From Nesterenkonia sp. PF2B19 (lineage in GTDB: Bacteria; Actinomycetota; Actinomycetes; Actinomycetales; Micrococcaceae), in assembly GCF_001758425.2 (NCBI RefSeq), contig NZ_MDSS02000027.1:1-46550 (forward strand): a stretch of DNA of 46,550 nucleotides, written 5' to 3'. Shown here piece after piece: positions 6,977 to 31,375 of this stretch. The position numbers were made by a program, and so were the translations under genes. Within the stretch, counting starts at the first letter, position 1. Every line of letters starts with the position of its first letter. Under the pieces are notes generated by a model that searched no databases, was not told the origin of the DNA, and worked only from the letters and a program-made list of their open reading frames with translations.

Positions 6977-9220
6977 ATGACGACGACACAGAGTACGGCG
7001 GAGCCTGTGCCGCACTCACCTTGGAAGCGCTTGCGGAAACATGCGGTGCGGACGGCAGGGGCCCTCGGACTGGCCGGGGCCATGCTGGCACCCGCCACCA
7101 TGCCTGCGGCCACCGCCTTCGACGGCGGGCCCCCGGCCTCCGACAACGCGGCCGATCATGCCGGTGCCCGCGGCGCGGAGAATGCCTCGCAGAACTCCGC
7201 CCACCACACCGACCGGCTCCCGGAGTTCCGCACCGCGGCGCAGAGCGCGGAAGGCCCGAAGGACACCACCGCCGTGATGTTCCAGTGGACGTGGAACAGC
7301 ATCGCCCGCGAATGCCGTGAGACGCTCGGCCCGGCCGGCTACGGCTACGTGCAGACCTCCCCCACCCAGGAGCACATCCAGGGCGAACAGTGGTGGACCC
7401 ACTACCAGCCGGTGAGCTATCAGATCGAATCCCGGCTCGGCACCCGCGAGGAGTTCGCGGACATGGTCGCCGAGTGCAACGACGCCGGTGTGAAGGTCAT
7501 CGCCGACGTCGTGATCAATCACATGACCGGCCAGCAGGAAGGCGTGGGCTGGGCCGGCAGCGAGTTCACCCACACGGACTACCCCGGCACCTACTCGCCC
7601 GATGACTTCCACAACCACGGCTGCGAGGTGGAGGACTACACCGACCGCTGGCAGGTCCAGGAATGCGACCTGCTCGGACTCGCCGATCTGAAGACCAGCT
7701 CCGACTACGTCCAGTCGAGGATCGCCGAACACCTCGAGGACCTCATCGACCTCGGCGTCGAGGGCTTCCGCATCGATGCGGTCAAGCACATCTCCGCCGA
7801 CGACCTCACCGGCATCCTGGACCGCGTGGACCTGACCGACATCTACGTGGTCTCCGAGGTCATCCGCGGCGGCGGCGAACCCATCCAGCCCGAGGAGTAC
7901 CAGCACCTGGGCGACGTCCACGAGTTCACCTGGGGCCGGAAGCTCAAGGAGGCCTTCGACGGCGGCGACATCCACTGGCTGCTCTCCGGCGAGGGCATCG
8001 GCGAGACCTGGGACGGATTCATCGCCGACGAGCACGCCGGCACGTTCGTGGACAACCACGACACCGAACGCAACGGCGAGACCCTGAGCTACAAGGACGG
8101 AGACGCCTACCGCCTGGCCCAGGCCTTCACACTGGCCTGGCCGTACGGCATGCCCGCGGTGCACTCCGGCTACTCGTTCAGCGACTACGACGCCGGCCCT
8201 GTGCAGCACGAGGACGGTCGGATCCGCGACGCGGTCTGCGGCGAGGAGAACTGGACCTGCATCCACGCCCAGACCGAGGTGGCCAACATGGTCGGGTTCC
8301 GCAACGCCGTCGGGGACGCCCCGGTGACCGACACGTGGACCAACGACTCCCACGCCCTGGCCTTCGGCCGTGGCGACCAGGGCTTCCTGGTGGCCAACCG
8401 CGGACCGAACAGTGTGCAGCACACCTGGCAGACCTCCCTGCCGGCCGGCGAGTACTGCAACGTCTACACCGGCTCCGCCACCTCCGAGGGCTGCTCCGGG
8501 GAGACCGTGACCGTGGCGGCCGACGGCACCTTCAGCGCCCACGTGGGCCCGGACTCCGCCGTGGCTCTGCACGTGGGCGCCACCCCGGCCAGCGGCGACG
8601 GAGACGGCGACGGTGACGGATCGACGCCGCCGGAGGAGCGCGAGCTGTCCCTGTTCTACGCCACCGACTGGGAGACCCCGTACGTCCACTATCAGGTGGG
8701 CGACGGCGAGTGGACCGATGCTCCGGGCGAGGCACTGACGGAGGTCTGCGAAGGCTGGGCCCACACCGAGATCGACCTCGGCACCGCCCGCACCATCACC
8801 GCGGCGTTCAACGACGGCGGCGACGCCTGGGACAACAACGCCGGAGCGGACTACACGATCGGCTCCGGCGTCATCCAGCTCGCCGACGGCCAGCTGGCCG
8901 AGGGCGACCCCTGCGAGGCCCAGCCCGCCCCGGGCGAGGACCCGGACCTGACCGTGTACTACGAGACGGGCTGGGAGAACCCGCGCATCCACTACCAGGT
9001 GGGCGACGGCGGCTGGACGGACGTTCCGGGCGTGGCGATGGCCGAGGCCTGCGAGGGCTGGTTCCGGGCCGACATCCAGCTCGACGACGCGGACGGCATC
9101 ACGGCCGCCTTCAACGACGGCGCCGGCACGTGGGACAACAACGACCACCAGGACTACAGCATCGCCGCCGGCGAGCAGCAGGTCTCAGAAGGAGAGGTCA
9201 CCGCAGGCAACCCCTGCTGA
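6977..9220 (+). CDS. Secreted alpha-amylase, GH13 with two C-terminal CBM25-like starch-binding modules
   Basis: An extracellular endo-acting alpha-1,4-glucanase of 747 residues that would hydrolyse starch. A long twin-Arg-free signal peptide (about residues 1-45, ending AATA) is followed by the GH13 barrel. Conserved pieces are VIADVVINHM, GFRIDAVKH (nucleophile Asp267), VVSEV (acid/base Glu294) and FVDNHD (Asp362). The barrel resembles Streptomyces-type amylases. An Asp-Gly linker (GDGDGDGDG, near residue 540) leads to two tandem modules of about 90 residues. Each carries W-x-x-P-x-(V/I)HYQVGDG, AFNDG and WDNN, typical of CBM25 starch binding. The protein is strikingly acidic, as in halotolerant enzymes. 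The ATG at 6977 was chosen because GGAGA lies eight bases before it. A single-gene unit. Confidence 0.95.
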   Translation: MTTTQSTAEPVPHSPWKRLRKHAVRTAGALGLAGAMLAPATMPAATAFDGGPPASDNAADHAGARGAENASQNSAHHTDRLPEFRTAAQSAEGPKDTTAVMFQWTWNSIARECRETLGPAGYGYVQTSPTQEHIQGEQWWTHYQPVSYQIESRLGTREEFADMVAECNDAGVKVIADVVINHMTGQQEGVGWAGSEFTHTDYPGTYSPDDFHNHGCEVEDYTDRWQVQECDLLGLADLKTSSDYVQSRIAEHLEDLIDLGVEGFRIDAVKHISADDLTGILDRVDLTDIYVVSEVIRGGGEPIQPEEYQHLGDVHEFTWGRKLKEAFDGGDIHWLLSGEGIGETWDGFIADEHAGTFVDNHDTERNGETLSYKDGDAYRLAQAFTLAWPYGMPAVHSGYSFSDYDAGPVQHEDGRIRDAVCGEENWTCIHAQTEVANMVGFRNAVGDAPVTDTWTNDSHALAFGRGDQGFLVANRGPNSVQHTWQTSLPAGEYCNVYTGSATSEGCSGETVTVAADGTFSAHVGPDSAVALHVGATPASGDGDGDGDGSTPPEERELSLFYATDWETPYVHYQVGDGEWTDAPGEALTEVCEGWAHTEIDLGTARTITAAFNDGGDAWDNNAGADYTIGSGVIQLADGQLAEGDPCEAQPAPGEDPDLTVYYETGWENPRIHYQVGDGGWTDVPGVAMAEACEGWFRADIQLDDADGITAAFNDGAGTWDNNDHQDYSIAAGEQQVSEGEVTAGNPC

Positions 9221-17038: not shown

Positions 17039-18762
17039 ATGACGCTCTCGACCCCGCTTCCCGATGAGTCCCCCGCCGCCGAGCGGCCCGCCGACACCCC
17101 GCCCCTGACCATGCTCAGCCCGGACTTCCCCTTCAGCTACGACCACTATCTGGCGAGCCCGACCGGACTGGGTCAGGTCCCCGAACAGGCGCACGGCACC
17201 GAGGTCGCCGTCGTCGGCGGCGGACTGGCCGGCATCGTGGCCGCCTATGAGCTGATGAAGATGGGCCTGAAGCCCGTGGTCTACGAGGCGGCCGGAATCG
17301 GCGGGCGCCTGAAGTCCCAGGTCTTCGACGGCGCCCCCGACGTCGTCGTCGACCTCGGCGGGATGCGCTTCCCCACCACGGGCCGCGCCTTCTACCACTA
17401 CGTGGACAAGCTGGGCCTGGAGACCCGTGCGTTCCCCAACCCGCTCTCGCCCGTCACCCCGTCGACCGTGATCGACTCGCCCACGAGCCCGAGCCCACCT
17501 ACGCGGAGACCGAGGACCAGCTCCCCCCGCTCTACCGGGAGGTCGCCGAGGCATGGAAGCAGGCGCTGCGTGACGAGGCCGAACTCGACGCCGTGCAGGA
17601 CGCCATCCGTCACCGCGACGCGCAGACCCTCAAGCGGCTCTGGAACGAGCTGGTGGCCCGCTTCGACGACGAGTCCTTCTACGGCTTCGTCGCCGGCTCC
17701 GAGGCCTTCAAGGCCCTGAGCTGGAAGCACATCGAGACCTTCGGGCAGGTGGGCTTCGGCTCCGGCGGCTGGGACACCGACTTCCCGAACTCCGTGCTCG
17801 AAGTCCTGCGAGTCGTCTTCACCGACGCCGACGACGACCACCGCGGCATCGTCGGCGGCGCCCAGCGTCTGCCCGAGTCGCTGTGGCGCCACGCTCCCGA
17901 GGACATCGTCCACTGGCCGGCCGGCACCTCGCTGGAGTCGCTGCACGGCGGCGCACCCCGAGGTGCGGTCACCGGCATCCACCGCGGCCAGGACGGCTCG
18001 CTGCCCGACGGCGGCGTCACCATCACCGAGAAGTGGGGCCGCACCACCACGTACCCGGCCGCCGTCGTGACCTGCCAGTCCTGGCTGCTCTCAGCCCGAA
18101 TCGACACCGACGAAGACCTCTTCACCCCGGAGATGTGGAACGCCATCGAGAAGAGCCACTACATGCTCTCCTCGAAGACCTTCGTCATGGTGGACCGCCC
18201 GTTCTGGCGGGACATCGACCCGGAGACCGGCCGCCCGGTGATGTCCATGACGCTGACCGACCGGCTCCCGCGGGCCACCTACCTGCTGGACGAGGGCCCG
18301 GACAAGCCGGCGGCGATCCTGCTCTCCTACACCTGGAACGACGACGCCCTGAAGTGGCTGCCGCTGGACGCCGACGAGCGCACCCGGCTCATGCTGCACT
18401 CGCTGCACAAGATCTACCCCACCCTTGACATCGGCTCCCACATCATCGGCCAGCCGATCACCGTCTCCTGGGAGGCCGACCCCAACTTCATGGGCGCCTT
18501 CAAGAACAACCTGCCGGGCCACTACCGGTACCAGGAGAAGCTGTTCAACCACTTCGTGCAGAAGGACCTGCCGCAGCACCAGCGCGGCATCTTCCTGGCC
18601 GGCGACGACATCTCCTTCACCGCCGGCTGGGCCGACGGCGCCGTCACCACCGCGCTCAACGCCGTCTGGGGCGTCATGGACCACCTGGGCGGCTCCACCG
18701 CCACGGACAACCCCGGCCCCGGCGACGTCTGGGACGAGCTCAAGCCCATCGCCCTGGACTGA
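17039..18762 (+). pseudogene. Amino-acid 2-monooxygenase-type flavoprotein amine oxidase, one frameshift
   Basis: An FAD enzyme of the flavin amine oxidase fold, about 574 residues if repaired. The FAD site is VVGGGLAGIVAAYELMKMG with an acidic residue in VVYEAAG and GGRLKSQ. The C-terminal stretch [19 protein letters not shown], then [12 protein letters not shown] and [20 protein letters not shown], is the signature of lysine, arginine and tryptophan 2-monooxygenases. These oxidatively decarboxylate an amino acid to an amide. With a ureohydrolase directly downstream, arginine (giving 4-guanidinobutyramide) is the favoured substrate by inference. The frame breaks near 17476 after STVID. Restoring one C gives the continuous run AHEPEPTYAETEDQLPPLY. 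All motifs on both sides are intact. GAGGA lies ahead of the ATG. Confidence 0.85.
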
Positions 18763-18833
18763 GGCACCCCCGCTTCCTGCCCTTCCCGCCCTTCCCCTCC
18801 CTTCCCTGCCCTTCCCCGCCCCGAAAGGACATC

Positions 18834-19850
18834 ATGACCAGCCAGTCCTCCCCCGAGAACACCCCCACGACGCCGGTCGGCCCCCGCGACAGCTCCAAGA
18901 CCCCGCGCTACGCCGGCCGGGCCACCTACGCCCTGCTCCCGGAGCTGCACGAGGTCGGCCGCGCCGACATCGCCGTGGCCGGGGTCCCCTTCGACACCGG
19001 AGTGAGCTACCGCCCCGGGGCGCGCTTCGGTCCCTCCCACGTCCGGGAGGCCTCGCGCCTGCTGCGCCCCTACAACCCGGCCCAGGACATCTCCCCCTTC
19101 GCCGTGCAGCAGGTCGCCGACGCCGGTGACCTGGTGGCCAACCCGTTCAACCTGGACGAAGCCATCCAGCAGGTGGCCGACGGCGCCCGCGACCTGCTCA
19201 CCCAGGCCGAGAAGCTGGTGGTCATCGGCGGCGACCACACCATCGCCTACCCGCTGCTGCGCACCATGGCGGAGAAGCACGGCCCGGTGGCGGTGCTGCA
19301 CGCCGACGCCCACCTGGACACCTGGGACACCTACTTCGGCGCCCCCATCACTCACGGCACGCCGTTCCGCCGCGCCTCCGAGGACGGGTTCATCGACCTG
19401 ACCGCCAGCGCTCACCTGGGCATCCGCGGTCCGCTCTACGGCAAGGGCGACCTCGACGACGACGCCCGCCTGGGCTTCCAGATCACCACCAGCGAGTTCA
19501 TCGAGGAGCACGGCGTCCCGGCGGCGATCGAGCGGCTGCGCGCCCGCCTCGGCGACCGCCCGGTGTACATCTCGGTGGACATCGATGTCCTGGACCCGGC
19601 CCACGCGCCGGGCACCGGCACCCCGGAGGCCGGTGGCCTGACCTCACGGGAGCTGCTGCGCATCATCCGCGGACTCTCGGACCTGAACCTGGTGGGTGCC
19701 GACGTCGTCGAGGTCGCCCCGGCCTACGACCACGCCCAGCTGACGGCCGTGGCGGCCAGCCACGTGGTCTACGAGCTGATCTCCGCGATGGGCCAGTCCA
19801 AGAACGCCCCGGTCGAGAACACCCAGGTCGAGAACACCCAGGAAGCCTGA
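18834..19850 (+). CDS. Ureohydrolase (agmatinase / guanidinobutyrase family)
   Basis: A binuclear manganese enzyme of 338 residues that hydrolyses a guanidino compound to urea and an amine. The metal ligands are all visible: GGDHT (His135), HADAHLDT (Asp158, His160, Asp162) and [19 protein letters not shown] (Asp249, Asp251). SHGTPFRRA-like [10 protein letters not shown] is also present. Agmatinase and 4-guanidinobutyrase cannot be separated by eye. Its place behind a 2-monooxygenase, plus GABA-degrading genes at 32-37 kb, favours guanidinobutyrase. GAAAGGACATC precedes the ATG. The C-terminus ends in a tandem [11 protein letters not shown] caused by a 15-bp duplication (19812-19841). The upstream gap (18763-18833) is a pyrimidine-rich CCCTTCC repeat. 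The next gene starts four bases after its stop. Confidence 0.88.
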
Positions 19851-19854
19851 GCCC

Positions 19855-21243
19855 ATGAACCTCTACCGCCGTCTCGACCAGCACCTCGAGACCCACTCCG
19901 AGACGGGGCAGCCGGTCGTCGGTGAGCTCACCGGCCGCCGGATCTTCATGATCTGGCTGGCCGCGAACCTGGTGGTCACCACCATGCTCACCGGGACCCT
20001 GTTCGTCCCTGGGATCGGCTACGGGGCTGCGGCCACCGCGATCCTGATCGGGACGCTGGTCGGGGCGGCGGTGCTCACCGCGGTGGGCGCGATCGGCACC
20101 CGCACGGGTTTGGCCACCATGGCGCTGACCCGCGGGCCCTTCGGACTGCGCGGCTCCATGCTGCCGGTGGCCGCCAATGTGACGGTCCTGATGGGGTGGA
20201 GCTGGGTGCAGGCCATGCTGGCAGGCATCACCGTGGACCACCTGATCGCCGGGTTCACCGGTTGGTCCAACCCCGTGCTGTGGTCGGTGGTCTGCGAGAT
20301 CATCGTGGTCTCCCTGGCGATCTTCGGCCACTCCGGGATCGCCAAGGTCGAGCCTTGGCTGGCGGTCTTCATCCTGGCGGTGATGGGCTACGTGTTCTAC
20401 CTGGCTCTCTCCGCGTTCTCCGTCACGGACTTCCAGGCCCTTCCTGAGGCCCCCGAGGCCGGAATGACCTCGATCATCGCCCTGGACATCGTGATCGCCA
20501 CCGCGATCTCCTGGACGGTGCTCTCCGCGGACTTCAACCGCTTCGCCCGCACCCCGCGGGCCGGCGTCGTCGGCTCCGGGCTGGGCTACACGACCTCCAC
20601 GGTGCTGGCCATGCTGCTGGGCCTGACCGGAATCTCCTACCTGATCGCCTCCGGCACCAGCCCGGAGGCCTTCGACCCGGTGGCGTTCGTCGAGGGCTTC
20701 GACACCCCGGTGGCCGTGGTGATCTTCTTCTCCGTGATGGCCACCAACACCATGGCCGTCTACGGCATGACGACGTCGGCGGTCGGCCTGCTGCCCGGGC
20801 GCCGCTTCCGCTTCCTGCCCACCGCGCTGGTGCTGGGCGGCGTCTCCGTGCTCGGCTCCACCTGGCTGGCCCTGCTGGACCAGTTCACCGACTTCCTGGT
20901 CATGATCAGCGCCTTCTTCATCCCGGTGTTCGCGATCCTGCTGATCGACTACTACCTGCTGCGCCGCGGCCGCTACACCCGGGACATCCTCAATTCCGCC
21001 GGAGGCGCCTACTGGTACCGCCAGGGTGTGAACTGGCGGGCCTTCCTGGTGTGGTTCGCCGGAGCCGCGTCCATCTACTGCTGGACCTACGTCTGGCCCC
21101 TGGCCGTCGGCGCCTCCATCCCCGCGTTCCTGCTCAGCGCCGCCGCCTACCTGGCGCTGTCGTGGCACACTCGTTCCCCGGGACGTGCCGCCTCGGCGTC
21201 CTCCGACCCTGACTCCCCCGCCCAGCTGTCCACCACAAGGTGA
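19855..21243 (+). CDS. NCS1-family (cytosine permease-like) transporter
   Basis: A membrane carrier of 462 residues with about twelve helices. It resembles the CodB branch of nucleobase:cation symporters: TGRRIFMIWLAANLVVTTML near the start, TRGPFGLRGSMLP, the ISWTVLSADFNRFARTPRAG loop, and MISAFFIPVFAILLIDYYLL. NCS1 members carry cytosine, allantoin, hydantoins and related nitrogenous compounds. Here the operon suggests uptake of a guanidino compound or amino-acid derivative, which I infer only from context. It starts four bases after the ureohydrolase stop and the next protein starts eleven bases after its own stop, so translation of the three is coupled. Confidence 0.82.
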   Translation: MNLYRRLDQHLETHSETGQPVVGELTGRRIFMIWLAANLVVTTMLTGTLFVPGIGYGAAATAILIGTLVGAAVLTAVGAIGTRTGLATMALTRGPFGLRGSMLPVAANVTVLMGWSWVQAMLAGITVDHLIAGFTGWSNPVLWSVVCEIIVVSLAIFGHSGIAKVEPWLAVFILAVMGYVFYLALSAFSVTDFQALPEAPEAGMTSIIALDIVIATAISWTVLSADFNRFARTPRAGVVGSGLGYTTSTVLAMLLGLTGISYLIASGTSPEAFDPVAFVEGFDTPVAVVIFFSVMATNTMAVYGMTTSAVGLLPGRRFRFLPTALVLGGVSVLGSTWLALLDQFTDFLVMISAFFIPVFAILLIDYYLLRRGRYTRDILNSAGGAYWYRQGVNWRAFLVWFAGAASIYCWTYVWPLAVGASIPAFLLSAAAYLALSWHTRSPGRAASASSDPDSPAQLSTTR

Positions 21244-21254
21244 GGTCACCTGCC

Positions 21255-22742
21255 ATGACACAGACAACCACTCGACGAGCCGCCCCCTGGTTCCTCATCC
21301 CATCCCTGCTGGGGATCATGATCTTCGTGGTGCCCATCCCGGATGGGGAGGGATCCATCACCATCCCGGTGGCCTGGCTGGCCGGCGCCACCGAGGCCGG
21401 GCTGGGCGACGCCCTGGCCTGGCTGACCGTGGGCGTGATGGCGGTCTCGGTGCTCGGCACCTCCCTCTTCCGCGCCCTCCCCGAGCACCTGCGGGAGCGC
21501 CCGCTGGTGCGCGCACTGTTCTCCACCACACCCGTGTGGTTCGGGCTGCGCATCCTGGGCCTGATCTTCGGGCTGCTGACCGTGCTGCAGGTCGGGCCGG
21601 AGTGGCTGTGGCACGAGGACACCGGCGGCCTGATCTTCGGGCTGGCCGCCTTCATGGTGACCGTGTTCTTCTTCGCCGGCTTCCTGCTGCCGCTGCTGCT
21701 GAACTTCGGGCTGCTGGAATTCGCCGGGGTGATGCTGACCAAGGTGATGCGTCCGCTGTTCACCGTGCCCGGGCGCTCCTCCATCGACAGCCTCGCCTCC
21801 TGGCTGGGCGACGCCACCATCGGTGTGCTGATGACCAACCAGCAGTACGTGCAGGGCTACTACACCAAGCGTGAGGCCGCCGTGCTGGGCACCACGTTCA
21901 ACGTCGTCTCCCTGACCTTCACCATCGTCATCATGGGTTACCTGAGCCTGCAGCACATGTTCGCCCCCTTCTACGCGACCATCGTGGTGGCCGGCCTGGC
22001 CGCCGCGGTCATCATGCCCCGCATCCCGCCGCTCTCCCGATTCAGCGACAGTTACGCCGACTGGATCCCCCAGGGCGGCACCGAGGCCGCCGTCGCCGCT
22101 GAGCACCAGGCCGATCAGCACGGGGACACCGAGCACGGGGACACCGAGCACCAGGCCGCTGGGCATCAGGCCGACGTGGCCGCCTCGGCCGCCGAGGCCC
22201 CGGCCGGGTCCGAGGCGTCCTCCGGCTCCCGCTCTTCCACCTCCCAGCCGCCGATGATCCGGCGTGCGTGGGGCGCGGCCCTGGATCGGGCGGCGTCCTC
22301 CCGGCTGAGCGACATCTCCCGGCGCGGCGGCTCGAACGTGCTGGAGATGTGGATCGGCATCATCCCGATCATCATGGCTGTGGGCACCGTGGCGGTGCTG
22401 ATCGCCGAGCACACGCCGCTGTTCTCCTGGCTGGGCGCACCGTTCGTGCCGGTCCTGGAGCTGATGGGCGTCCCGGAGGCCGCGGCGGCCTCTGAGACCC
22501 TGTTCATCGGCTTCGCGGACATGCTGCTGCCGGCCCTGATCGGAACCGGCATCGAGGCGGAGATGACCCGGTTCATCATCGGGTGTCTGTCGGTCACCCA
22601 GCTGATCTTCATGTCCGAGGTCGGTGGTCTGCTGCTCGCCTCGAAGATCCCGGTCCGCTTCCACCACCTGGCGGCGATCTTCCTGCTGCGCACCCTGATC
22701 ACCCTGCCGATCATCATCGGGCTGGCGCACCTGTTCTACTGA
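21255..22742 (+). CDS. YjiH-family Gate-domain (nucleoside-recognition) membrane protein
   Basis: A membrane protein of 495 residues. Two Gate-type halves are recognisable: FAGFLLPLLLNFGLLEFAGV with SWLGDATIGVLMTNQQYVQG, and SNVLEMWIGIIPIIMAVGT with ETLFIGFADMLLPALIGTGI. This matches YjiH proteins, which are probably transport proteins of uncertain substrate. Between the halves (about residues 272-333) lies a hydrophilic His/Asp/Ala/Ser-rich insert with the repeated peptide HGDTE, encoded by a perfect 15-bp tandem duplication (22119-22148). The ATG at 21255 was chosen over an in-frame GTG at 21240, which overlaps the previous stop. It is the last gene of the operon and is followed by a strong hairpin. 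Confidence 0.8.
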   Translation: MTQTTTRRAAPWFLIPSLLGIMIFVVPIPDGEGSITIPVAWLAGATEAGLGDALAWLTVGVMAVSVLGTSLFRALPEHLRERPLVRALFSTTPVWFGLRILGLIFGLLTVLQVGPEWLWHEDTGGLIFGLAAFMVTVFFFAGFLLPLLLNFGLLEFAGVMLTKVMRPLFTVPGRSSIDSLASWLGDATIGVLMTNQQYVQGYYTKREAAVLGTTFNVVSLTFTIVIMGYLSLQHMFAPFYATIVVAGLAAAVIMPRIPPLSRFSDSYADWIPQGGTEAAVAAEHQADQHGDTEHGDTEHQAAGHQADVAASAAEAPAGSEASSGSRSSTSQPPMIRRAWGAALDRAASSRLSDISRRGGSNVLEMWIGIIPIIMAVGTVAVLIAEHTPLFSWLGAPFVPVLELMGVPEAAAASETLFIGFADMLLPALIGTGIEAEMTRFIIGCLSVTQLIFMSEVGGLLLASKIPVRFHHLAAIFLLRTLITLPIIIGLAHLFY

Positions 22743-22906: not shown

Positions 22907-23866
22907 ATGAACCGTGCTCCGCGCCTGCTCGACGTCGTCACCGCCCACCGCCGCCTGCGCGGCCGGGTGCGCACCACTGCCGTGGAGGCCTCCGGTCCGC
23001 TCTCCGCAGAGTCCGGCGCCGAGGTGCTCATCAAATGGGAGAACCAGCAGGTCACCGGCTCGTTCAAGGCGCGCGGAGCGCTGAACACCGTGGACTCGCT
23101 CTCGGAGGCGGAACGCGCCCGCGGCGTCGTCACCGCCTCCTCGGGCAATCACGCCCAGGGGCTGAGCTGGGCGGCCGCGGCCCAGGGGTGCCGGCCACGA
23201 TCGTGTGCCGGAGACCACTCCGGAGACCAAGAAGGCGGGGGCGCGGACGCTCGGGGCGGAGCTGATCGTCCACGGCTCCTCCTATGACGACGCCGAGGCG
23301 CACGCCTGGACGCTCGCCGAGGAGCGCGGTGCGGTCTACGTGCACTCCTATGACGATCCGCGCATCATCGCCGGACAGGGCACCGTGCACTGGAGGCGCT
23401 GCTGGAGCACCCCGACCTGGAGGCGATCGTGGTGCCCGTGGGCGGCGGCGGACTCATCTCCGGGATCGCGGTGGCGGCCAAGGCCATCAGCCCCCAGATC
23501 CGGATCATCGGGGTCCAGCCCGAGGTCTCGGCGAAGTTCGGCGCCAGCTTCGCCGCCGGGCACTGCGTAGACGTCCCCTACCGATCCTCCTGGGCGGACG
23601 GTCTGCCGGGAGACATCGGAGAGCTGAACCTGCAGGTCGTGCTGGAGCATGTGGACGACTTCGTGGCGGTCTCCGAGGACAGCATCGCTGAGGCCGTCGC
23701 CTGGCTCGCCCGGCATCACCGGCAGATGATCGAGGGTTCCGGGGCGGTCGGCGTCGCCGCCTTCCAGCAGGGGCTGCTGGAGGATCTGCGCGGGAAGAAG
23801 GTCCTGACGGTCGCCACCGGCGGCAACATCGACGCCGACCGGTTCGCCGCGTTCCTGCAGCGCTGA
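22907..23866 (+). pseudogene. Threonine/serine dehydratase (PLP, fold type II), three one-base losses
   Basis: A catabolic-type threonine ammonia-lyase converting threonine to 2-ketobutyrate and ammonia, about 320 residues if repaired and without a C-terminal ACT domain. The PLP lysine is in QVTGSFKARGA (Lys54). SSGNHAQGLSWAAAAQG, VVPVGGGGLISGIAVAAKA (phosphate-binding glycine loop) and the end VLTVATGGNIDADRF are intact. The frame changes near 23187 and 23204. Adding a G at each gives GVPATIVVPETTPETKKAG. It changes again near 23387, where one more G gives GTVALEALLEHPDLEAIV. The protein is complete apart from these losses, which fit sequence error as well as decay. GAGG lies before the ATG. 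Confidence 0.85.
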
Positions 23867-24026: not shown

Positions 24027-25511
24027 TCAGGAAGCGTCCGCCCGCACCGTGGTGCCGACGTCGATCTGCGCCCGCTCCGCCGCGAGCTGGTCCAGGGCCT
24101 CCTGTTCGGAGACCTGGGACCGGGGAGTGATCAGACTGACGAGCACGCAGGCCGCCGTGGCCACGGCCAGGGAGGGGAACACCGGACCGCCCCAGAACTC
24201 GATCCAGGTGTCGTTGGCCTGCACGGTGAGGGACGTGGCGGAGCCCGCCACGATCGCCGCCATCCCGCCCTGCCAGGTGGCACGCGACCAGAAGCGCCCC
24301 AGCACGGAGGCCACGAAGAGCCCTGCGAGGATCGTCGAGATCATCGTGGTGATGTACCCGATGACAGTGTCCGCGATCAGCGCCCCGGCCAATGCCAGCG
24401 TCAGCACGCAGACCAGGGAGATCCGTGAGTACAGGACCATCTTCTCCTTCTTCGGCATCCGCCCGGTGACCATCTGCACGACATCGCGCAGCAGGATCGT
24501 CACGGCCGTCACCGCGTCGGAGTCCCCGGAGGACATGGTCGCCGAGAGCCCCGCCACCAGCAGGAACGCACCCACAGCCAGCGGGAAGACCTCGGTGGCG
24601 AGATACGGGAACGCCATGTCCGGTGACGCCAGGTCAGGGTTGAGGCTGTAGGCGGCCATACCGACGAGCGCGGGCATCACCGCGAATGCGGCGAACAGCC
24701 CCGCCACCCAGAGGAAGCTGCGTCGCACCACCTGGGTGTTCCGCGCCGAGTAGATGCGTTGCCGGAAGGAGGGTGTGGCCAGCACTCCGACGGCGATGAC
24801 GGCGGCGAAGGACACAGCCGGCAGCGGCCCCATGGCCTCCAGGCCGAGGAAGCCCATGGCCTCTTCGCCAGAGGCAGCATCCAGGCCGGAGAACCCGCCC
24901 AGCGTCACGACGGCCAGCACTGCCAGGCCGGTGAAGCCCAGGAAGAGCAGCGTCCCCTGGATGGCGTCGGTGATCACCACAGCGAGGTAGCCGCCGACGA
25001 CGGTGTAGATGCCGAAGCCGAGGGCGACGATGACCTTGGACAGGGTGATGTCGATTCCCGTCAGGTAGGTCAGGTAGATGGATCCGCCCATGATGTGGGC
25101 GCCCAGCCACCCCACGCTGGCCAGCAGGAGGACCACGGCGACGAGGCCCTTCACCTTGCGGTCCGCTCCGTAGTAGAAGCTGACCTCCTCGGAGTAGGTC
25201 ATGAAGCCATGCTTCCGGACACCGGCGAAGAGCAGCATCAGGAGCAGCACGCCGGTGGCCCCGCCGATGCCGTAGAGCGCCCCGGCCCACCCGTTCTCAT
25301 AGCCGAAGCCGACGGCGCCCAGGCTGGAGCCGGTGCCCACCAGGGTGGCCAACGTGGTGGCCAGCAGCAGCGGCGTGGTCAGATTCCGTCCGGCCAGCAG
25401 GAAGTCCTCACCGGTCTTCGTCCTCCGGGCGATCAGGATCCCGACGACCAGCATGAGGACGACGAACCCGATGAAGACACCCAGGTAGACAGGGTGCGGC
25501 GTGATGTCCAC
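24027..25511 (-). CDS. Sodium:solute symporter (SSS family)
   Basis: A membrane carrier of 494 residues with about thirteen helices. SSS features are RRTKTGEDFLLAGRNLTTPL near the start, ATLVGTGSSLGAVGFGYENG, GGYLAVVITDAIQGTLLFLG (family signature region) and LVAGLSATMSSGDSDAVTA. Such proteins import sugars, organic or amino acids with sodium. It is the last gene of a four-gene operon with a deacylase, a D-amino-acid dehydratase-like enzyme and RidA, so the substrate is probably an N-acylated or free D-amino acid or amino-sugar acid. It starts with GTG at 25511, six bases after the RidA stop and without a good ribosome site of its own, implying translational coupling. Confidence 0.88.
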   Translation of the reverse strand: MDITPHPVYLGVFIGFVVLMLVVGILIARRTKTGEDFLLAGRNLTTPLLLATTLATLVGTGSSLGAVGFGYENGWAGALYGIGGATGVLLLMLLFAGVRKHGFMTYSEEVSFYYGADRKVKGLVAVVLLLASVGWLGAHIMGGSIYLTYLTGIDITLSKVIVALGFGIYTVVGGYLAVVITDAIQGTLLFLGFTGLAVLAVVTLGGFSGLDAASGEEAMGFLGLEAMGPLPAVSFAAVIAVGVLATPSFRQRIYSARNTQVVRRSFLWVAGLFAAFAVMPALVGMAAYSLNPDLASPDMAFPYLATEVFPLAVGAFLLVAGLSATMSSGDSDAVTAVTILLRDVVQMVTGRMPKKEKMVLYSRISLVCVLTLALAGALIADTVIGYITTMISTILAGLFVASVLGRFWSRATWQGGMAAIVAGSATSLTVQANDTWIEFWGGPVFPSLAVATAACVLVSLITPRSQVSEQEALDQLAAERAQIDVGTTVRADAS

Positions 25512-25517
25512 TGGCGA

Positions 25518-25910
25518 TCACCCCTCGGAACCTGAGAGGGGCGAGTACAGCACGGCATCCACCTCGATCTCGAACCCGGGGAGATCCGCCTGCAGCGTGG
25601 TGCGAGCCACCTGCCCCTCCCCGAAGTACTGCGGGAAGAGCTCGTTCATGCCGGCGAAGTTGCCCAGATCCAACAGGTAGACACCCACGCGGACGGCCTG
25701 ATCGAGGCTCGCGTCTGCGGAGGCGGCGATGGCGGCCAGATGGTCGAAGGTGACCTTGGCCTGGGTGGCGAAGTCGCCCTCCACCAGGCTGCCGTCCGGC
25801 CGGTGCGGTGTGGCTCCGGAGAGGAACACGAAATCGCCGGCACGCACGGCGTGCGCGTACGGCCCTCCGGGACGGCAGGCCTCGGGGGTCATGATCGGCT
25901 TCTTAGTCAT
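25518..25910 (-). CDS. RidA-family enamine/imine deaminase
   Basis: A small soluble protein of 130 residues, the normal RidA length. It hydrolyses reactive enamine/imine intermediates such as 2-aminoacrylate that PLP dehydratases release. Typical pieces are GPYAHAVRAGDFVFLSGATP, FDHLAAIAASADASLDQAV and ARTTLQADLPGFEIEVDAVL. The active-site arginine of the family lies in the ARTT segment. Its position directly after a PLP dehydratase-like gene supports a clean-up role for that enzyme's product. AAAGGA lies six bases before the ATG. The 78-base gap to the upstream gene holds a small GTCTC/GAGAC dyad. Confidence 0.88.
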   Translation of the reverse strand: MTKKPIMTPEACRPGGPYAHAVRAGDFVFLSGATPHRPDGSLVEGDFATQAKVTFDHLAAIAASADASLDQAVRVGVYLLDLGNFAGMNELFPQYFGEGQVARTTLQADLPGFEIEVDAVLYSPLSGSEG

Positions 25911-25988
25911 AGCATTGTCCTTTCAGTGCTCGGGTTGGGGACTGTCTCGGGAGACATGTGAGGGACGTCAGGCGGGGAAGGCCCGGCG

Positions 25989-27245
25989 TCAGAATCTGGT
26001 GCGGACGGAGGCGTCCCAGCGCAGGTGGCCCGGCTCGACGGCCGTGACCAGCAGCAGGTCCCGCCATTTGTCGGCGATCGTGCAGGGATGGGACTGCCCG
26101 AATTCGATGACGTCGCCGATCTCGATCTCCTGGTCGGCGTGCTCCAGGTAACCGTGCTGGTCATTGGTGTCCACCAGCTCCGCCTGGGTGAACGGTTCGA
26201 TGCGCCCGTCAGCCCGGTGGATCCGCAGCGGTCGGGGCAGGGAGATGTCATAGGCCAGGTCCCGTTTGCCGGCGTCGAGGATCGCGAGTCCCTGTTCTGG
26301 CGTGGAGAGCACCCGCGCCCAGAGCGTGGCTGCCGCACGCAGCTGCGGACCAGAGTCACGCAGCTGGTAGGGGGTCAGCCGCCCGTAATGACCATGGTCA
26401 TGAAGCAAGTAGGAGCCCGGGCGGAGGACCACGCGCCCGCCGACGGCGGTCTCTGCCGGTGGCCTGAGAATCTCGGCCGCCAGGTCGAAGTAGAGCCCGC
26501 CGCCGGCGGTGAGTACGGGATGATCCACTTCCATCCGGTCCGCATAGCGCTCGAAGAGCCGGGCCATGCGCCGAAGGAACGCCCGGACCTCCTCGATCCG
26601 CTCCGGGGGCAGCACGCCTTCGAAACCTGAGAACCCGGCGAAGGCCACGGCATCGGATGCCGTGATCGCCTCCACGATCTCGCCGACCTCATCGTCCTGC
26701 CGGACTCCGGCCCGTTTCCCCGGGATGCCCAGTTCGATGCACACCTGCACCGGACGTGGAGTCCGGCCCAATGCTGCCTGCATCTGCTCGACGGCACGCA
26801 CGGAGTCCACCCAGCACATGATCTCTGGCCCGTCGTCCTCCAGGACGCCACGCAGCCAGGTCAGCCCGGGCGGCGTGAGGAACTCGTTGGCGATCACCAC
26901 CAGCGGAACTCCCTCCTGCACCGCCACACGGGCCTGTGGGAAGTTCGCCACCGTGATGCCCACGGCACCGGCGGTCAGCTGGGCGCGCCACAGAGCCGGG
27001 GTCATCGTCGTCTTGCCGTGAGGGGCCAGCTGGACTCCCTGCTCGGCCATCCAGGACGCCATGCGTTCGATGTTGGAGACCACCGCCTCGGTCTCCACGG
27101 TCAGCATCGGCGTCGGGAGTTCGTCCCTGATGCGGAGAGTCTGCCCGGGCTCGAGTCTCCCCAGGGAAGACTTGGAGCGCGGGCCGGGGGCCTCGTGCTC
27201 CGCCAGGACGGCGGTTCGGATCGTGTCGGTGTCGTGCTGCGTCAT
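25989..27245 (-). CDS. Fold-type III PLP enzyme, D-serine dehydratase / D-glucosaminate dehydratase-like
   Basis: A PLP enzyme of 418 residues with an alanine-racemase-type barrel followed by the DSD C-terminal domain. The PLP lysine is Lys78 in QLAPHGKTTMTP. The C-terminal domain holds NDQHGYL and GQSHPCTIADKWRDLLLV, whose His386 and Cys388 match the zinc pair of D-serine dehydratase. Relatives deaminate D-serine, D-threo-3-hydroxyaspartate or D-glucosaminate, or cleave D-threonine. The neighbours (N-acyl-D-amino-acid deacylase, RidA, KDG kinase, KDPG aldolase) make 2-amino-2-deoxy-D-gluconate a strong candidate, with KDG and ammonia as products. This is inferred. ATG codons at 27248 and 27245 are both possible; the second has better spacing from GAGGAG. 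Confidence 0.82.
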   Translation of the reverse strand: MTQHDTDTIRTAVLAEHEAPGPRSKSSLGRLEPGQTLRIRDELPTPMLTVETEAVVSNIERMASWMAEQGVQLAPHGKTTMTPALWRAQLTAGAVGITVANFPQARVAVQEGVPLVVIANEFLTPPGLTWLRGVLEDDGPEIMCWVDSVRAVEQMQAALGRTPRPVQVCIELGIPGKRAGVRQDDEVGEIVEAITASDAVAFAGFSGFEGVLPPERIEEVRAFLRRMARLFERYADRMEVDHPVLTAGGGLYFDLAAEILRPPAETAVGGRVVLRPGSYLLHDHGHYGRLTPYQLRDSGPQLRAAATLWARVLSTPEQGLAILDAGKRDLAYDISLPRPLRIHRADGRIEPFTQAELVDTNDQHGYLEHADQEIEIGDVIEFGQSHPCTIADKWRDLLLVTAVEPGHLRWDASVRTRF

Positions 27246-27270
27246 CATCTGTCTCCTCACGTGTGTCGGC

Positions 27271-28914
27271 CTACTCGTCTCCGGTGCGCCCTGACGGCAG
27301 CGACCTGCCCACGGGACCGGTGCGGTGCAGCTGTCCCGAGCCGGAACCGGCATCGCCTGGCGCCTCGGGACGCCGTGGCCAGACCGGTCGGCCTCCGAGC
27401 AGCACGGCGTCGAGCCCCTGTGTCTCCCGCCGCGGGTTCTGATAGTCGGCCCGGTCCATGTAGGTGGCAGGGTCGATGATCTGCAGGTCAGCTGGTGCCC
27501 CCGGGACGATGGAGCCGCCGGCGACTCCGAAGCGCGCACGCGGAGCCGAGGTCATCCTCCGGACGACCTCCTCGGCGGGCACCACTCCCTCAGCCCACGC
27601 ATACGTGCTCAGAGCCCGGGGGAACGTGCCGAACAGCCGCGGGTGGACATACCCTTCCTCCCGGGGAAGGCCGTCGGAGCCGAGGAAGGCGTGGGGCCAG
27701 CTGAGCACCTCCCGCATCCCCTGCGGGTCCGAGTGGTGGACGATGATGGTGAGGACTCCGTCCTCCGCGAGCAGGAGATCAGCCAGCGCCTCGGCGGGAT
27801 CCTCGCCTCGTTCGGCGGCGATGTCCGCCAGCGCCCGACCGTCGAAGGCCTGGGCCTGCGGATCGCTGAATCCGGCGAGCAGGATCGCTTCCGGCCCCAC
27901 CGAGGTGAATTGGTTCTCCAGGGGCCCGTCCCACGGAGTGCGCATCTCTTCGAGAGCCCGGGACCGGGCATCCGGATCGGTGAGGACCTCCAGCAGCGAG
28001 TCTGTTCCGCGGTCGGTGGTCCAACTGGGGAACAGCGTGGAGGCGGTGGTGCTGCCGGCGGTGTAGGGGTAGACGTCGGCGGTGACGTCGATCCCTTCTG
28101 CGCGGGCGGCCTCCAGGCGGTCGATGATCCGAGGCATCGTGCCGAAGTTGGCGGCACCGGTGACCTTGAGATGACTGATGTGCAGCGCGCATCCGGCGTC
28201 GCGACCCAGGGCCAGAAACTCCTCCAGGGAGCCTTCCAACCTGCCGCCTTCGTTCCTGATGTGCGCCACCAGCACCTTGCCCCGGCGAGCCACCACCCGG
28301 GCGAGCGCCAGCAGCTCGTCGCGCCCGGCCGCGCTCCCCGGGGAGTACATGAGTCCCAGGGAGAGACCCGCCGCTCCGGCGCTGAGCGCCTCGTCCAGGT
28401 GCGCGGCCATCTCACGGATCTGGACGGCATCGGCCGGCTTCTGCTCCATACCCATCACGCTGGCTCTCAGGGGCGCGTGCGGGACCAGGGCGATGACGTC
28501 GAGTGCGGTGGCGGAACGTTCCACCACGTCGAGGTAGTCGGTGAATCGGGGAAACACCTGCTCCGGGAACGGGCCGAGCACGGGCCTCGCGTAGTCCTCC
28601 AGGCCTCCACCGGCGACGGAGGGCGCACACCCGTGGCCGCAGTTGCCCACGATGGTGGCCGTCACCCCCTGGGAAAGCTTCGGATCGAGGGCACGGGGGC
28701 GGAGGAGGGCGGCGTCGTCGTGGGAGTGGACGTCGATGAACCCGGGAAGCAGGAGGCGTCCCGTGGTGTCCCGCAGCGTCTCGCCCTCGGTGAGGGACAG
28801 GTCGGTGCCCACCTCGACCACCCGTCCGCCGGCGATCCGGACATCGGCACGACGGCGGGGACGTCCGGTGCCGTCGAGCAGGTCCCCGCCTCGGATGAGC
28901 TGTCGGTCGTGCAT
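27271..28914 (-). CDS. N-acyl-D-amino-acid deacylase (D-aminoacylase family)
   Basis: A zinc amidohydrolase of 547 residues that removes the acyl group from N-acyl-D-amino acids. Residues matching those known in D-aminoacylases are visible: LLPGFIDVHSHDD (His63, His65), IVGNCG (Cys92), VAHIRNEG (His218), LHISHLK (His248) and AFLGSDG (Asp414). Length and order are normal. In this operon it would supply the free D-amino acid to the PLP enzyme 25 bases downstream. If the substrate is N-acetyl-D-glucosaminate, the products are acetate and D-glucosaminate. The ATG at 28914 or 28917 follows GGGAGG. It is the first gene of the minus-strand operon, divergent from the YheO-type regulator. Confidence 0.88.
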   Translation of the reverse strand: MHDRQLIRGGDLLDGTGRPRRRADVRIAGGRVVEVGTDLSLTEGETLRDTTGRLLLPGFIDVHSHDDAALLRPRALDPKLSQGVTATIVGNCGHGCAPSVAGGGLEDYARPVLGPFPEQVFPRFTDYLDVVERSATALDVIALVPHAPLRASVMGMEQKPADAVQIREMAAHLDEALSAGAAGLSLGLMYSPGSAAGRDELLALARVVARRGKVLVAHIRNEGGRLEGSLEEFLALGRDAGCALHISHLKVTGAANFGTMPRIIDRLEAARAEGIDVTADVYPYTAGSTTASTLFPSWTTDRGTDSLLEVLTDPDARSRALEEMRTPWDGPLENQFTSVGPEAILLAGFSDPQAQAFDGRALADIAAERGEDPAEALADLLLAEDGVLTIIVHHSDPQGMREVLSWPHAFLGSDGLPREEGYVHPRLFGTFPRALSTYAWAEGVVPAEEVVRRMTSAPRARFGVAGGSIVPGAPADLQIIDPATYMDRADYQNPRRETQGLDAVLLGGRPVWPRRPEAPGDAGSGSGQLHRTGPVGRSLPSGRTGDE

Positions 28915-29012
28915 CATCGCCTCCCGTGCTGTCGTCGTCCATCGATGTGTCGTGGGCAACACTGTGCCGGGATCGAGACTAACGCATGGTTTACCGAGAA
29001 TCTATACACTTG

Positions 29013-29027
29013 ATGTAACTTTTACAT
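29013..29027. promoter_or_regulatory. AT-rich dyad in the deacylase/regulator divergent region
   Basis: ATGTAACTTTTACAT is a perfect 6-bp inverted repeat with a three-base centre. It lies in a conspicuously AT-rich stretch (about 28980-29030) midway between the two divergent transcription units. Its most likely ligand is the adjacent YheO-type regulator. TATAGA on the minus strand just beyond it is a possible -10 for the deacylase operon. Confidence 0.5.
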
Positions 29028-29111
29028 GAGAGTGCGGGAACGGAGTCCCTGTCCACGGGGTACCGTATGGACCACACAACCCTGAATCAGCGCACAGCCG
29101 AGAGGAATCCA

Positions 29112-29783
29112 GTGAGCGATGTGACGGCAGATCCGCCGCGGTTCGAGAGCATCGAGGAGCTCCATGCGGTGCTGGCTCCGGTGATGAAGGCCGTCGCCGT
29201 CACCATCGGGGAGCACTGCGAGGTGGTTCTCCATGACCTGAGCCGACGCGACATGGACCAGACGATCCACGCGATCGAGAACGGCCACGTCAGCGGCAGG
29301 TCCGTCGGCGGGCCCTCGACGGACCGTGGCCTGACCCTGCTGAAGGACGAGTCAGTCGACCATGACGCCTTCGGCTACCGCGGTCGCACCGCCGACGGCC
29401 GGGAGCTGCACTGTTCCTCGGTGTACTACCGGAACCGCGCAGGTTCTGTCATCGGGGCGCTGTGCATCAATGTGGACCTCACGGCGCTGGAGAACGTCCG
29501 CTCGATCATCTCCTCCCTCCTGCCGACTCAGCAGCAGGATGAGCCGGAGGAGATCGTCGGCCCCAGCATCGACGCCGTCCTCGACGGGATGCTGGAATCC
29601 GCCATCGCCGAGATCGGCAAGCCGCCGCCGGTCATGGTGAAAGACGATCGCATCGCGGTGCTGCGCAGGCTCGAAGCGCGCGGGGCGTTCCATATCAAAC
29701 GCGCCGTGGACCGCGTCTCCCAACGCCTGGGCATCTCCAAGGTCACGGCCTACAGCTACCTGGACACCATCCGCAACTCCTGA
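29112..29783 (+). CDS. YheO/DauR-type transcriptional regulator (PAS-like plus HTH)
   Basis: A DNA-binding protein of 223 residues. The YheO-type PAS-like sensor fills residues 10-125 (VLAPVMKAVAVTIGEHCEVV, LHDLSRRDMDQTIHAIENGH, and GALCINVDLTALE). The C-terminal helix-turn-helix is at about 175-220 (RIAVLRRLEARGAFHIKRAV, LGISKVTAYSYLDTI). Relatives include DauR, the repressor of D-arginine catabolism, so a D-amino-acid-like effector fits the neighbouring deacylase operon. The GTG at 29112 was chosen because GAGAGGA lies before it. An ATG at 29067 sits on a possible -10 (TACCGT) and has no ribosome site. Followed 66 bases later by the KDG kinase gene, probably in the same transcript. Confidence 0.83.
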   Translation: MSDVTADPPRFESIEELHAVLAPVMKAVAVTIGEHCEVVLHDLSRRDMDQTIHAIENGHVSGRSVGGPSTDRGLTLLKDESVDHDAFGYRGRTADGRELHCSSVYYRNRAGSVIGALCINVDLTALENVRSIISSLLPTQQQDEPEEIVGPSIDAVLDGMLESAIAEIGKPPPVMVKDDRIAVLRRLEARGAFHIKRAVDRVSQRLGISKVTAYSYLDTIRNS

Positions 29784-29849
29784 ACCACCCGGCGGACTCC
29801 GTGGGGCACACCGTGCCCGCGGAAGCCCCAGACCGGAAGAAGGCACCCC

Positions 29850-30749
29850 ATGACGATCACACCCTCACCCGTGCTGTGCGTGGGCGAGACGATGGCTCTT
29901 GTCACCCCCAGCAGCACGGACCGGCTGCGCACGGCCGGTGCGTTCGCCCTCGACGTCGGCGGGGCCGAGTCCAATGTGGCCGCTCACCTCGCCCAGCTCG
30001 GACGCCGCAGCATCTGGTTCAGCCGACTCGGCGACGACGAGCTCGGCCGGCGAGTCTCGGATGTGCTCGCCGCTCGCGGCGTGGACCTCGCCCCGGTGAT
30101 CTTCGACCCGGAGGCTCCGACCGGCGTCTACTTCAAAGACCCCGGCCACGGCGTCCTCTACTACCGCAGGGGATCTGCCGCCTCCCGGCTTTCGGCGGCC
30201 GACGCCGATGCGCTGGATCTGGGCGACATCGGATTGGTGCACCTCTCGGGAATCACCCCTGCGCTGTCCACCTCGGCAGCGGCATTCATCGACCAGCTGG
30301 TGGTGCGTACCGCAGAATCCGGCATCCCCATCAGCTTCGATGTGAACTACCGCTCCCCGCTCTGGCCGCGCGAGGACGCCGCTGCGGCCCTCCTGCGCCT
30401 GTCCCGGCAGGCCGACGTCGTCTTCGTCGGCCGTGACGAGGCGGAGCTGCTCTGGGGAACGATCACGGCCGAGGCCGTGCGCGACCTCCTGGACGACGTC
30501 CCCACCCTGGTCATCAAGGACGGCGACGTCGGCGCCACGGAGTTCACCGGAGAACAGCGCGTGTTCGAACCTGCCATTCCGACCGACGTCGTCGAAGTCG
30601 TAGGAGCAGGTGACGCCTTCGCCGCCGGATACCTCGCGGCGATGCTCGACGGCGAAGCCTCTGCGGCGCGTCTCACGGCAGGTCACCGCCGTGCCGCACT
30701 GGCGCTGCAGACCACCACTGACTTCCTGGACGAAGGAGCATCCGCATGA
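29850..30749 (+). CDS. kdgK: PfkB-family sugar kinase, probable 2-keto-3-deoxygluconate kinase
   Basis: A cytoplasmic ribokinase-fold kinase of 299 residues that would phosphorylate 2-keto-3-deoxygluconate (KDG) with ATP. The first PfkB motif region is DVGGAESNVAAHLAQLGRRS. The catalytic signature VVEVVGAGDAFAAGYLAA carries Asp255. YFKDPGHGVLYYRRGSAAS in the lid region and FDVNYRSPLWPRE are typical of KDG kinases. The stop overlaps the aldolase start (ATGA at 30746-30749), so kinase and aldolase form one unit and the sugar-acid assignment is strong. The pair shares a transcript with the YheO-type regulator of the deacylase operon. Confidence 0.87.
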   Translation: MTITPSPVLCVGETMALVTPSSTDRLRTAGAFALDVGGAESNVAAHLAQLGRRSIWFSRLGDDELGRRVSDVLAARGVDLAPVIFDPEAPTGVYFKDPGHGVLYYRRGSAASRLSAADADALDLGDIGLVHLSGITPALSTSAAAFIDQLVVRTAESGIPISFDVNYRSPLWPREDAAAALLRLSRQADVVFVGRDEAELLWGTITAEAVRDLLDDVPTLVIKDGDVGATEFTGEQRVFEPAIPTDVVEVVGAGDAFAAGYLAAMLDGEASAARLTAGHRRAALALQTTTDFLDEGASA

Positions 30750-31375
30750 CCTCGACATCCTCACCGGTGGAGAACACCTGGTTCGATCACGCCTTCGGCT
30801 CCGCCCCGGTCATGGCCATCCTCCGCGGCATGGGAGTGGAACGCTCGGTGGAGCTCGCCACCACGGCCTGGGACCTCGGCATCGACTCCGTGGAGCTGCC
30901 CCTCCAGACCGACGAGGACCATGCGGCCCTGCGTGAGGTCTCCCGCCTGGCCTCCGAGCGGGGCACGTCCGTCGGCGCGGGCACCATCGTCCGACAGGAG
31001 CAGATCTCCGCCGCCCAGGAAGCCGGTGCGGAGTACCTGGTCTCCCCCGGCTACGACGAATCGCTCATCCGCGCCGCCGCGCAACAGTCCATGCCCTTCC
31101 TGCCGGGTGTCACCACTCCCACCGAGCTGCAGGCCGCCACCACGCTCGGACTGACCTGGGTGAAGGCCTTCCCCGCGGCCTGGCTGGGGACCTCGTGGTT
31201 CTCGCTGATGCGCGGCCCGTTCCCCCAGGTCAGCTTCGTGGCCACCGGCGGGCTGAACGCCCACAACGCTCAGGAGTTCCTCGACGCCGGCGTCCGCGTG
31301 GTGGCCGTGGGCTCAGCGCTCGAAGATCCGGAGCAGCTCACACTGCTGGCCGCGCAGGTGGGTCAGCAGGCCTGA
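30746..31375 (+). CDS. eda: 2-keto-3-deoxy-6-phosphogluconate (KDPG) aldolase
   Basis: A class I aldolase of 209 residues that splits KDPG into pyruvate and glyceraldehyde-3-phosphate. The Schiff-base lysine is Lys140 in LTWVKAFPA. PVMAILRGMGVERSVELATT at the start, GIDSVELPLQT, TSVGAGTIVRQEQ, YLVSPGYDESLI and VSFVATGGLNAHNA are all family features. The Thr-Val-Arg usually seen after the conserved Glu is replaced by Leu-Pro-Leu, which may shift substrate preference toward other 2-keto-3-deoxy acids. It overlaps the kinase gene by four bases and ends 14 bases before the convergent cyclase gene. Confidence 0.9.
   Translation: MTSTSSPVENTWFDHAFGSAPVMAILRGMGVERSVELATTAWDLGIDSVELPLQTDEDHAALREVSRLASERGTSVGAGTIVRQEQISAAQEAGAEYLVSPGYDESLIRAAAQQSMPFLPGVTTPTELQAATTLGLTWVKAFPAAWLGTSWFSLMRGPFPQVSFVATGGLNAHNAQEFLDAGVRVVAVGSALEDPEQLTLLAAQVGQQA

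Follow-up and report, generated by a model that had tools for sequence, protein, structure and literature searches.

What does an actinobacterium degrade with seven genes in which a D-aminoacylase-type operon faces the kinase and the aldolase of 2-keto-3-deoxygluconate (KDG) metabolism? The question is raised by positions 24027 to 31375 of contig NZ_MDSS02000027.1 of Nesterenkonia sp. PF2B19 (assembly GCF_001758425.2); the whole stretch of 46,550 nucleotides that was analysed is called the window. Actinomycetes are important chitin degraders, many of them equipped with lytic polysaccharide monooxygenases (LPMOs), and chitin LPMOs generate N-acetyl-D-glucosaminate (GlcNAc1A), the C1-oxidised end sugar. 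With moderate confidence, the block is taken to be a regulon for the breakdown of an N-acylated 2-amino-2-deoxy-D-aldonate, the likeliest being GlcNAc1A. The original prediction, made from the sequence, had pointed to a pathway of this kind in Pseudoalteromonas prydzensis. That pathway, ong, is real and uses these reaction types; in the available text of the source it is reported from Gammaproteobacteria and one Achromobacter (PMC9537276; this paper, PMC12017989, PMC11653859 and PMC13325158, each available in part, form the literature basis).

All seven predicted genes (7/7) were found at their coordinates with intact frames, and the Pfam and NCBIfam assignments agree with the names they had been given. 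The features of the block, including the enzyme that depends on pyridoxal phosphate (PLP), are as follows:

24027 to 25511, minus strand: sodium:solute symporter (SSS) of the OngIT clade, predicted GlcNAc1A importer (SSF; identities; tree)
25518 to 25910, minus strand: RidA-family protein in the role of OngD (Ribonuc_L-PSP)
25989 to 27248, minus strand: fold-type III PLP enzyme of the D-serine-dehydratase type in the role of OngC, predicted to convert D-glucosaminate to KDG and ammonia (D-ser_dehydrat with Ala_racemase_N)
27271 to 28917, minus strand: D-aminoacylase-family amidohydrolase with a long insertion domain in the role of OngB, predicted to deacetylate (Amidohydro_3)
28918 to 29111, no strand: divergent promoter region (conserved blocks in Nesterenkonia cremea)
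29013 to 29027, no strand: operator-like inverted repeat ATGTAA-CTT-TTACAT (motif search and conservation)
29112 to 29783, plus strand: YheO/DauR-type regulator (PAS_6 with HTH_22; start from a conserved GTG/TTG)
29850 to 30749, plus strand: PfkB kinase, predicted KDG kinase, KdgK (Pfam/NCBIfam: PfkB)
30746 to 31375, plus strand: 2-keto-3-deoxy-6-phosphogluconate (KDPG) aldolase, Eda (Pfam/NCBIfam: KDPG/KHG aldolase; 4-base overlap with the kinase gene)

The minus-strand operon is transcribed in the order D-aminoacylase (DAA), PLP enzyme, RidA and symporter, which tracks the catabolic steps, the symporter gene coming last; the plus-strand operon consists of the regulator, KdgK and Eda. The deacylase would start at an ATG near 28917 and the PLP enzyme at an ATG near 27248; a longer open reading frame of the latter runs into the deacylase. 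The regulator is predicted to start at a GTG near 29112, because the string GTG/TTG-AGC-GAT-GTG-AC is kept in N. cremea and an ATG at 29067 is not. With the corrected starts, the two operons are separated by 194 bases.

In the predicted pathway, the OngIT-type sodium symporter would take up GlcNAc1A, the amidohydrolase would cleave off the acetyl group to yield D-glucosaminate, and the PLP enzyme would remove water and ammonia from D-glucosaminate to form KDG. RidA proteins clear enamines and imines, and this member perhaps does so here. KdgK and Eda would then convert KDG to pyruvate and glyceraldehyde-3-phosphate. The regulator, encoded by the first gene of the KDG operon, would act on both operons at the palindrome between them. 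The proposed substrate derives mainly from the transporter and the logic of the pathway.

Judged by sequence comparison, the transporter is the strongest link of the block to GlcNAc1A. Two ong clusters served as references, one on a replicon of Pseudoalteromonas piscicida (L072) and the other on one of Vibrio (L073); a check of the former showed RpiR and GH20 genes in the cluster and an OngB whose first PDB match is PpOngB (584 bits). Identity of the window symporter to ong-type symporters of Gammaproteobacteria runs from 45% (P. piscicida) through 53% (Vibrio) to 54% (Psychromonas, L107); to those of Bacteroidota/Balneolota it is 52-53%, and every remaining aligned SSF symporter reaches at most 33%. 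In a quick tree with support from the Shimodaira-Hasegawa-like approximate likelihood ratio test (SH-aLRT) only, as for the two other trees below, and with a long-branch warning that also applies to the deacylase tree, 17 rows form one clade with support 100 (7 actinobacterial, 5 gammaproteobacterial, 5 Bacteroidota/Balneolota). The clade is separate from seven paralogues of the same genome and from E. coli PutP, PanF and ActP; three further paralogues are omitted from the tree, L126 and L128 as weak or partial and L127 as not detected. OngIT, the one characterised member of the clade, is needed by P. prydzensis for growth on GlcNAc1A (PMC9537276).

Carriers of OngIT-type symporters were also sought by a scan of named genome contigs, which gave 14 loci; the scan requires exact short peptides and hence is no census. 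Alongside the symporter of Kineosphaera limosa (L095), a clade mate, lie genes for Eda, an IclR regulator, a kinase, a PLP enzyme and RidA. The deacylase slot there is taken by an EF_0837/PRK09237-type amidohydrolase, and the amidohydrolase and Eda are each split across two frames in the record (L095:4291-5236 and 7031-8319). OngIT-type symporters and RidA were found in L100 and in L101, L102, L103 and L106, metagenome-assembled genomes of Bacteroidota/Balneolota, and OngB-clade deacetylases in the latter four; L103 additionally has GntP and PIG-L-type genes nearby. These five carriers lie outside the groups reported in the available text of PMC9537276.

Support for the seven genes as a unit was obtained from N. 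cremea (L094), which has the identical set with gene order and orientation unchanged and with identities of 62-84% (symporter 84%, regulator 83%, RidA 82%, Eda 78%, deacylase 65%, kinase 64%, PLP enzyme 62%). The seven-gene arrangement is more than chance. Only 7 of the 36 open reading frames of the window match the 21-kb N. cremea locus, all of them block genes, while the remaining 29 are unmatched; the ends of the block are therefore sharp. Non-coding blocks common to the gaps of both species are GGTTTAC, TCTATAC, TAACTTTTACAT and CGGGGTACCGTA. Between the operons, ATGTAACTTTTACAT is a perfect inverted repeat (29013-29027), with a single exact match in the window, whereas 100 shuffles gave none even with one mismatch allowed; in N. 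cremea the repeat is imperfect by one changed base in the left half. Its core, TRTAACTTTTACAT, sits within the run of conserved blocks; each of the two Nesterenkonia genomes has it once, in the inter-operon gap. Because the core is unique in each genome and placed alike in both species, the KDG genes and the deacylase operon probably form one regulon. The YheO/DauR-type regulator probably acts at the single palindrome and controls both operons. This bears on another explanation, in which KdgK and Eda receive their KDG from a uronate or gluconate pathway that has nothing to do with the divergent operon. The generic nature of both enzymes in KDG metabolism would allow this, but the promoter region is common to both operons, the conserved block stops at seven genes in N. 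cremea, and no uronate gene was found among the annotated neighbours (a genome-wide search for uronate enzymes was not made). A separate uronate or gluconate route is considered very improbable.

The kinase gives its best NCBIfam match to a model for kinases of KDG and 2-keto-3-deoxygalactonate (KDGal), at 177 bits under a cut-off of 440, and is the sole close KDG-kinase match found in its genome (the next match has 30% identity at 55 bits). The genome also contains another gene of the Eda family. Within the order, 40 deacylase stretches, which are most but not all of the strong places of the search, contain a PLP gene in 25 cases, a KdgK-like gene in 8 and Eda in 5. Conversely, 8 of the 30 KdgK-like genes of 36 other genomes of the order (E up to 1e-20) lie inside deacylase stretches, where 0.11 would be expected from their 0.36% share of the sequence. 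The binomial p of about 1.5e-13 treats genomes as independent and overstates this independence, since 4 genera are represented, one of them with 5 of the 8 genes, and 3 of the 8 already had a KdgK match before the stretches were chosen. The original prediction would have fallen had the KDG pair never been linked to the deacylase operon; in Actinobacteria, deacylase/PLP pairs are repeatedly found with a kinase, an aldolase or both linked to them. A record of Tsukamurella tyrosinosolvens is annotated with RidA, IclR, a sugar kinase, an alanine racemase-like protein, a D-aminoacylase, KDPG aldolase and a gluconate:H+ symporter. RidA-IclR-KdgK/PLP-DAA-Eda-GntP clusters at L058, L061 and L075 have a gluconate-family permease in place of an OngIT-type symporter. 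The L075 and L078 records are labelled plasmid yet contain chromosome-type genes (ftsX, smpB; hrcA, dnaG, leuA), so that the labels may be wrong.

The deacylase retains the equivalents of the metal and catalytic residues H68, H70, C97, H222, H252 and D368 of PpOngB, which bears out the claim that all zinc residues are present. In favour of GlcNAc1A, it also keeps Glu226, the residue by which PpOngB holds the C4 hydroxyl (PMC12017989), although related D-aminoacylases have a Glu at this position as well. The points that weigh against GlcNAc1A as the substrate begin with the clade and the pocket of this enzyme. The tree that the original prediction called for places the window and N. cremea deacylases together (support 100), apart from OngB (10 rows, 100) and also from the Asp97 actinobacterial class; the alignment leaves out L078 with its broken frames and rows of 120 bits or less. 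At PpOngB positions 193, 256, 290 and 292 both Nesterenkonia enzymes have M, T, G and T, whereas all ten OngB-clade rows have A, A, S and S (two aligner settings agree), and the window enzyme has Val for Leu116. The exchange S292T leaves PpOngB with 1.3% of its kcat/Km (PMC12017989, Table 1), and AfDam and BbDam, which possess Thr at 292, are inactive on GlcNAc1A. The column of Q298 holds Val in the window, its placement through the insertion being unsure, and Q (8/10) or E (2/10) in the OngB clade.

By bit score, the solved relatives rank as AfDam (274), BbDam (259), 9g5m (242) and PpOngB (199). With 553 bits to the OngB of P. piscicida, the amidohydrolase 9g5m is a near relative of OngB, and the gap on the OngB side is therefore smaller than the PpOngB score implies. 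An AlphaFold2 model built from 9 sequences was too poor for a check of the pocket (mean predicted local distance difference test, pLDDT, 59). The pocket is neither of the OngB type nor plainly of the hydrophobic AfDam type, with Met at 193 but Thr at 256 and with His (window) or Gln (N. cremea) at 348, and the insertion domain is longer than that of PpOngB. These features would suit a pathway of the same logic for another N-acylated 2-amino aldonate, such as N-acetyl-D-galactosaminate or one with a non-acetyl acyl group, leading to KDG or KDGal through the same types of kinase and aldolase; the nearest kinase models are indeed bifunctional KDG/KDGal kinases. Arguing for GlcNAc1A instead is the position of the symporter in a clade whose characterised member serves growth on this compound, and another aldonate is regarded as a minor possibility. 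An amidohydrolase gene of Pseudoalteromonas donghaensis (L108:7914-16928) lies near DgcN/DgcA genes for N-acetyl-D-Glu, a different N-acyl-D-amino-acid context.

The PLP enzyme, which has the PHGKT lysine motif and an SHPC motif, adds to the points against GlcNAc1A. In the comparison with OngC that had been proposed, it groups with actinobacterial rows outside the OngC clade (6 rows, 100); the tree omits L079, a truncated copy of the window, and rows of 150 bits or less. OngC itself also acts on D-serine and D-threonine. SHPC was discarded as a marker of OngC, S/A-HPC being present in all 41 rows, one of them the truncated window copy. Furthermore, 17 of the 25 deacylase-PLP pairs lack a KDG kinase in the stretch taken, and therefore the pair alone is no proof of an amino-sugar acid. 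One such stretch, L035:7139-11376, combines deacylase, PLP enzyme and RidA with a 58% identical YheO-type regulator. These pairs favour the salvage of D-amino acids, N-acyl-D-Ser, N-acyl-D-Thr and similar compounds, in which the KDG pair would be a mere bystander. The top solved relatives, D-aminoacylases for the deacylase and the 'D-serine deaminase' 3gwq for the PLP enzyme, fit such salvage, and regulators of the DauR type are associated with the use of D-arginine. However, the KDG genes of the window are in the operon of the regulator, which has its divergent promoter region in common with the deacylase operon; they are kept with that operon in N. cremea and are enriched beside such deacylases, and the symporter is in the OngIT clade, away from E. 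coli PutP and PanF. Salvage of D-amino acids is therefore judged unlikely.

The genomic context weighs on both sides. In favour of GlcNAc1A, all four Nocardiopsis genomes with an OngIT-type symporter (4/4) have a RidA-IclR-KdgK/PLP-DAA cassette at another site, with deacylases of the Asp97/Tyr226 type and no Eda seen in the four stretches. Against it, the symporter there is unlinked to the cassette, and a scan of its neighbours, which include ABC, transpeptidase and other genes, revealed no visible link. A search for chitin genes, suggested with the original prediction, found no AA10 LPMO (LPMO_10) in the window genome, although in an assembly 96% complete and in 134 contigs a gene may have been missed; it gave only one weak match to GH18 and one to GH20, the latter on a separate contig next to genes for ABC transporters. 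Of the 11 symporter-bearing genomes searched, 6 gave LPMO_10 matches, with 3-4 matched stretches in each of the four Nocardiopsis genomes, again a point in favour; no match was found in N. cremea, K. limosa, two Bacteroidota/Balneolota genomes and Alteromonas sediminis. If GlcNAc1A is the sugar, the bacterium would probably obtain it by scavenging from other degraders. A last point against is that no symporter of more than 35% identity was found in 395 other genomes sampled from the phylum (396 with its own; 13 of the others had matches of at most 35%, with up to 3 candidates scored in each genome), and the block is therefore rare.

The reading as a GlcNAc1A pathway has thus held in part: the symporter clade, the KDG linkage and the shared promoter region speak for it, and the deacylase clade, the PLP clade and AA10 against it. 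Further points in its favour are the gene-for-gene correspondence to ong, the conservation of the block in N. cremea, the surroundings of the K. limosa symporter, the single close KDG kinase found in the genome and the annotated neighbours, which contain no uronate gene. Simple horizontal transfer of ong was rejected, as the symporter alone is in an ong clade, and the catabolic enzymes look parallel to ong rather than transferred because the deacylase and the PLP enzyme are both outside the ong clades. This divergence is what chiefly argues against assigning the block simply to ong. The RidA of the window has 34-36% identity to its counterparts in the L072 and L073 reference clusters. More tentatively, and short of an even chance in our estimate, Actinobacteria may have assembled the use of oxidised chitin sugar separately and more than once, so that it would not be a gammaproteobacterial speciality. 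Besides the OngB lineage, two or more D-aminoacylase lineages would have been recruited, one represented by the window enzyme and one by the Asp97/Tyr226 enzymes of Tsukamurella, Arthrobacter and Nocardiopsis; Kineosphaera would have recruited the EF_0837/PRK09237-type deacetylase, and the OngIT importer would be common across phyla.

One flank of the block encodes a cyclase-family protein, two aldehyde dehydrogenases and an aminotransferase. The cyclase and the aldehyde dehydrogenases were rejected as block members since they are unmatched in the N. cremea locus. The other flank carries amine oxidase, arginase-family and permease genes: window positions 17593-22742 hold, in a row, an amine oxidase, an arginase-family hydrolase, a cytosine/purine-type permease and a Gate-domain protein, which suggests a route for polyamines or guanidino compounds. 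Immediately left of the block, 22907-23866 appears to hold a PALP-type gene broken up over different frames; PALP is matched by the first piece, and Pfam yields nothing for the frame 23284-23691.

In the literature searched, with subscription papers outside the search, no report on the fate of the oxidised chitin end sugar in Gram-positive bacteria was found. The available text of a paper on a Gram-positive LPMO names GlcNAc1A once, as an assay product (PMC13325158), and that of the two core papers never uses the words Actinobacteria, actinomycet-, Gram-positive or Streptomyces (PMC9537276, PMC12017989). Should the proposal be correct, it would provide cloneable enzymes, N. cremea as a test species available from a culture collection, and a second way of deacetylating GlcNAc1A with which to test how D-aminoacylases become sugar deacetylases. 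With separate assembly, a YheO/DauR-type regulator would sense an amino-sugar acid.

Compared with ong of P. prydzensis as described in the available text, the block has in common an OngIT-clade SSS symporter, a D-aminoacylase-like deacetylase, a D-serine-dehydratase-like PLP enzyme, RidA and a KDG kinase (PMC9537276). It differs in that GH20 (OngA), a TonB receptor and the RpiR-type OngR were not found within the block, the regulator being of the YheO/DauR type; in the other clades of deacylase and PLP enzyme; in a genome in which no LPMO was found; and in the Gram-positive host. The aldolase has parallels in the kdgA of Vibrio, Klebsiella and Serratia ong clusters (PMC9537276) and of the Vibrio reference cluster. 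With PpOngB (9kb1), the deacylase shares equivalents of the Cys/His/His metal site, the catalytic Asp, Lys254, Tyr194, Tyr285, Ser291, Glu226, Leu370 and Arg379 (PMC12017989, available text); it departs from it in the M/T/G/T residues, the Val at 116, the insertion domain and the clade. The actinobacterial RidA-IclR-KdgK/PLP-DAA-Eda(-GntP) cassettes, as in T. tyrosinosolvens, link the same enzyme set to a KDG kinase; unlike the block, they have a deacylase with Asp at the position of Cys97, Tyr226 and mostly Thr254, an IclR regulator, and a GntP permease or no linked OngIT-type symporter. We read the block as a hybrid, in which an OngIT-type importer would be joined to an actinobacterial cassette of deacylase, dehydratase and KDG enzymes.

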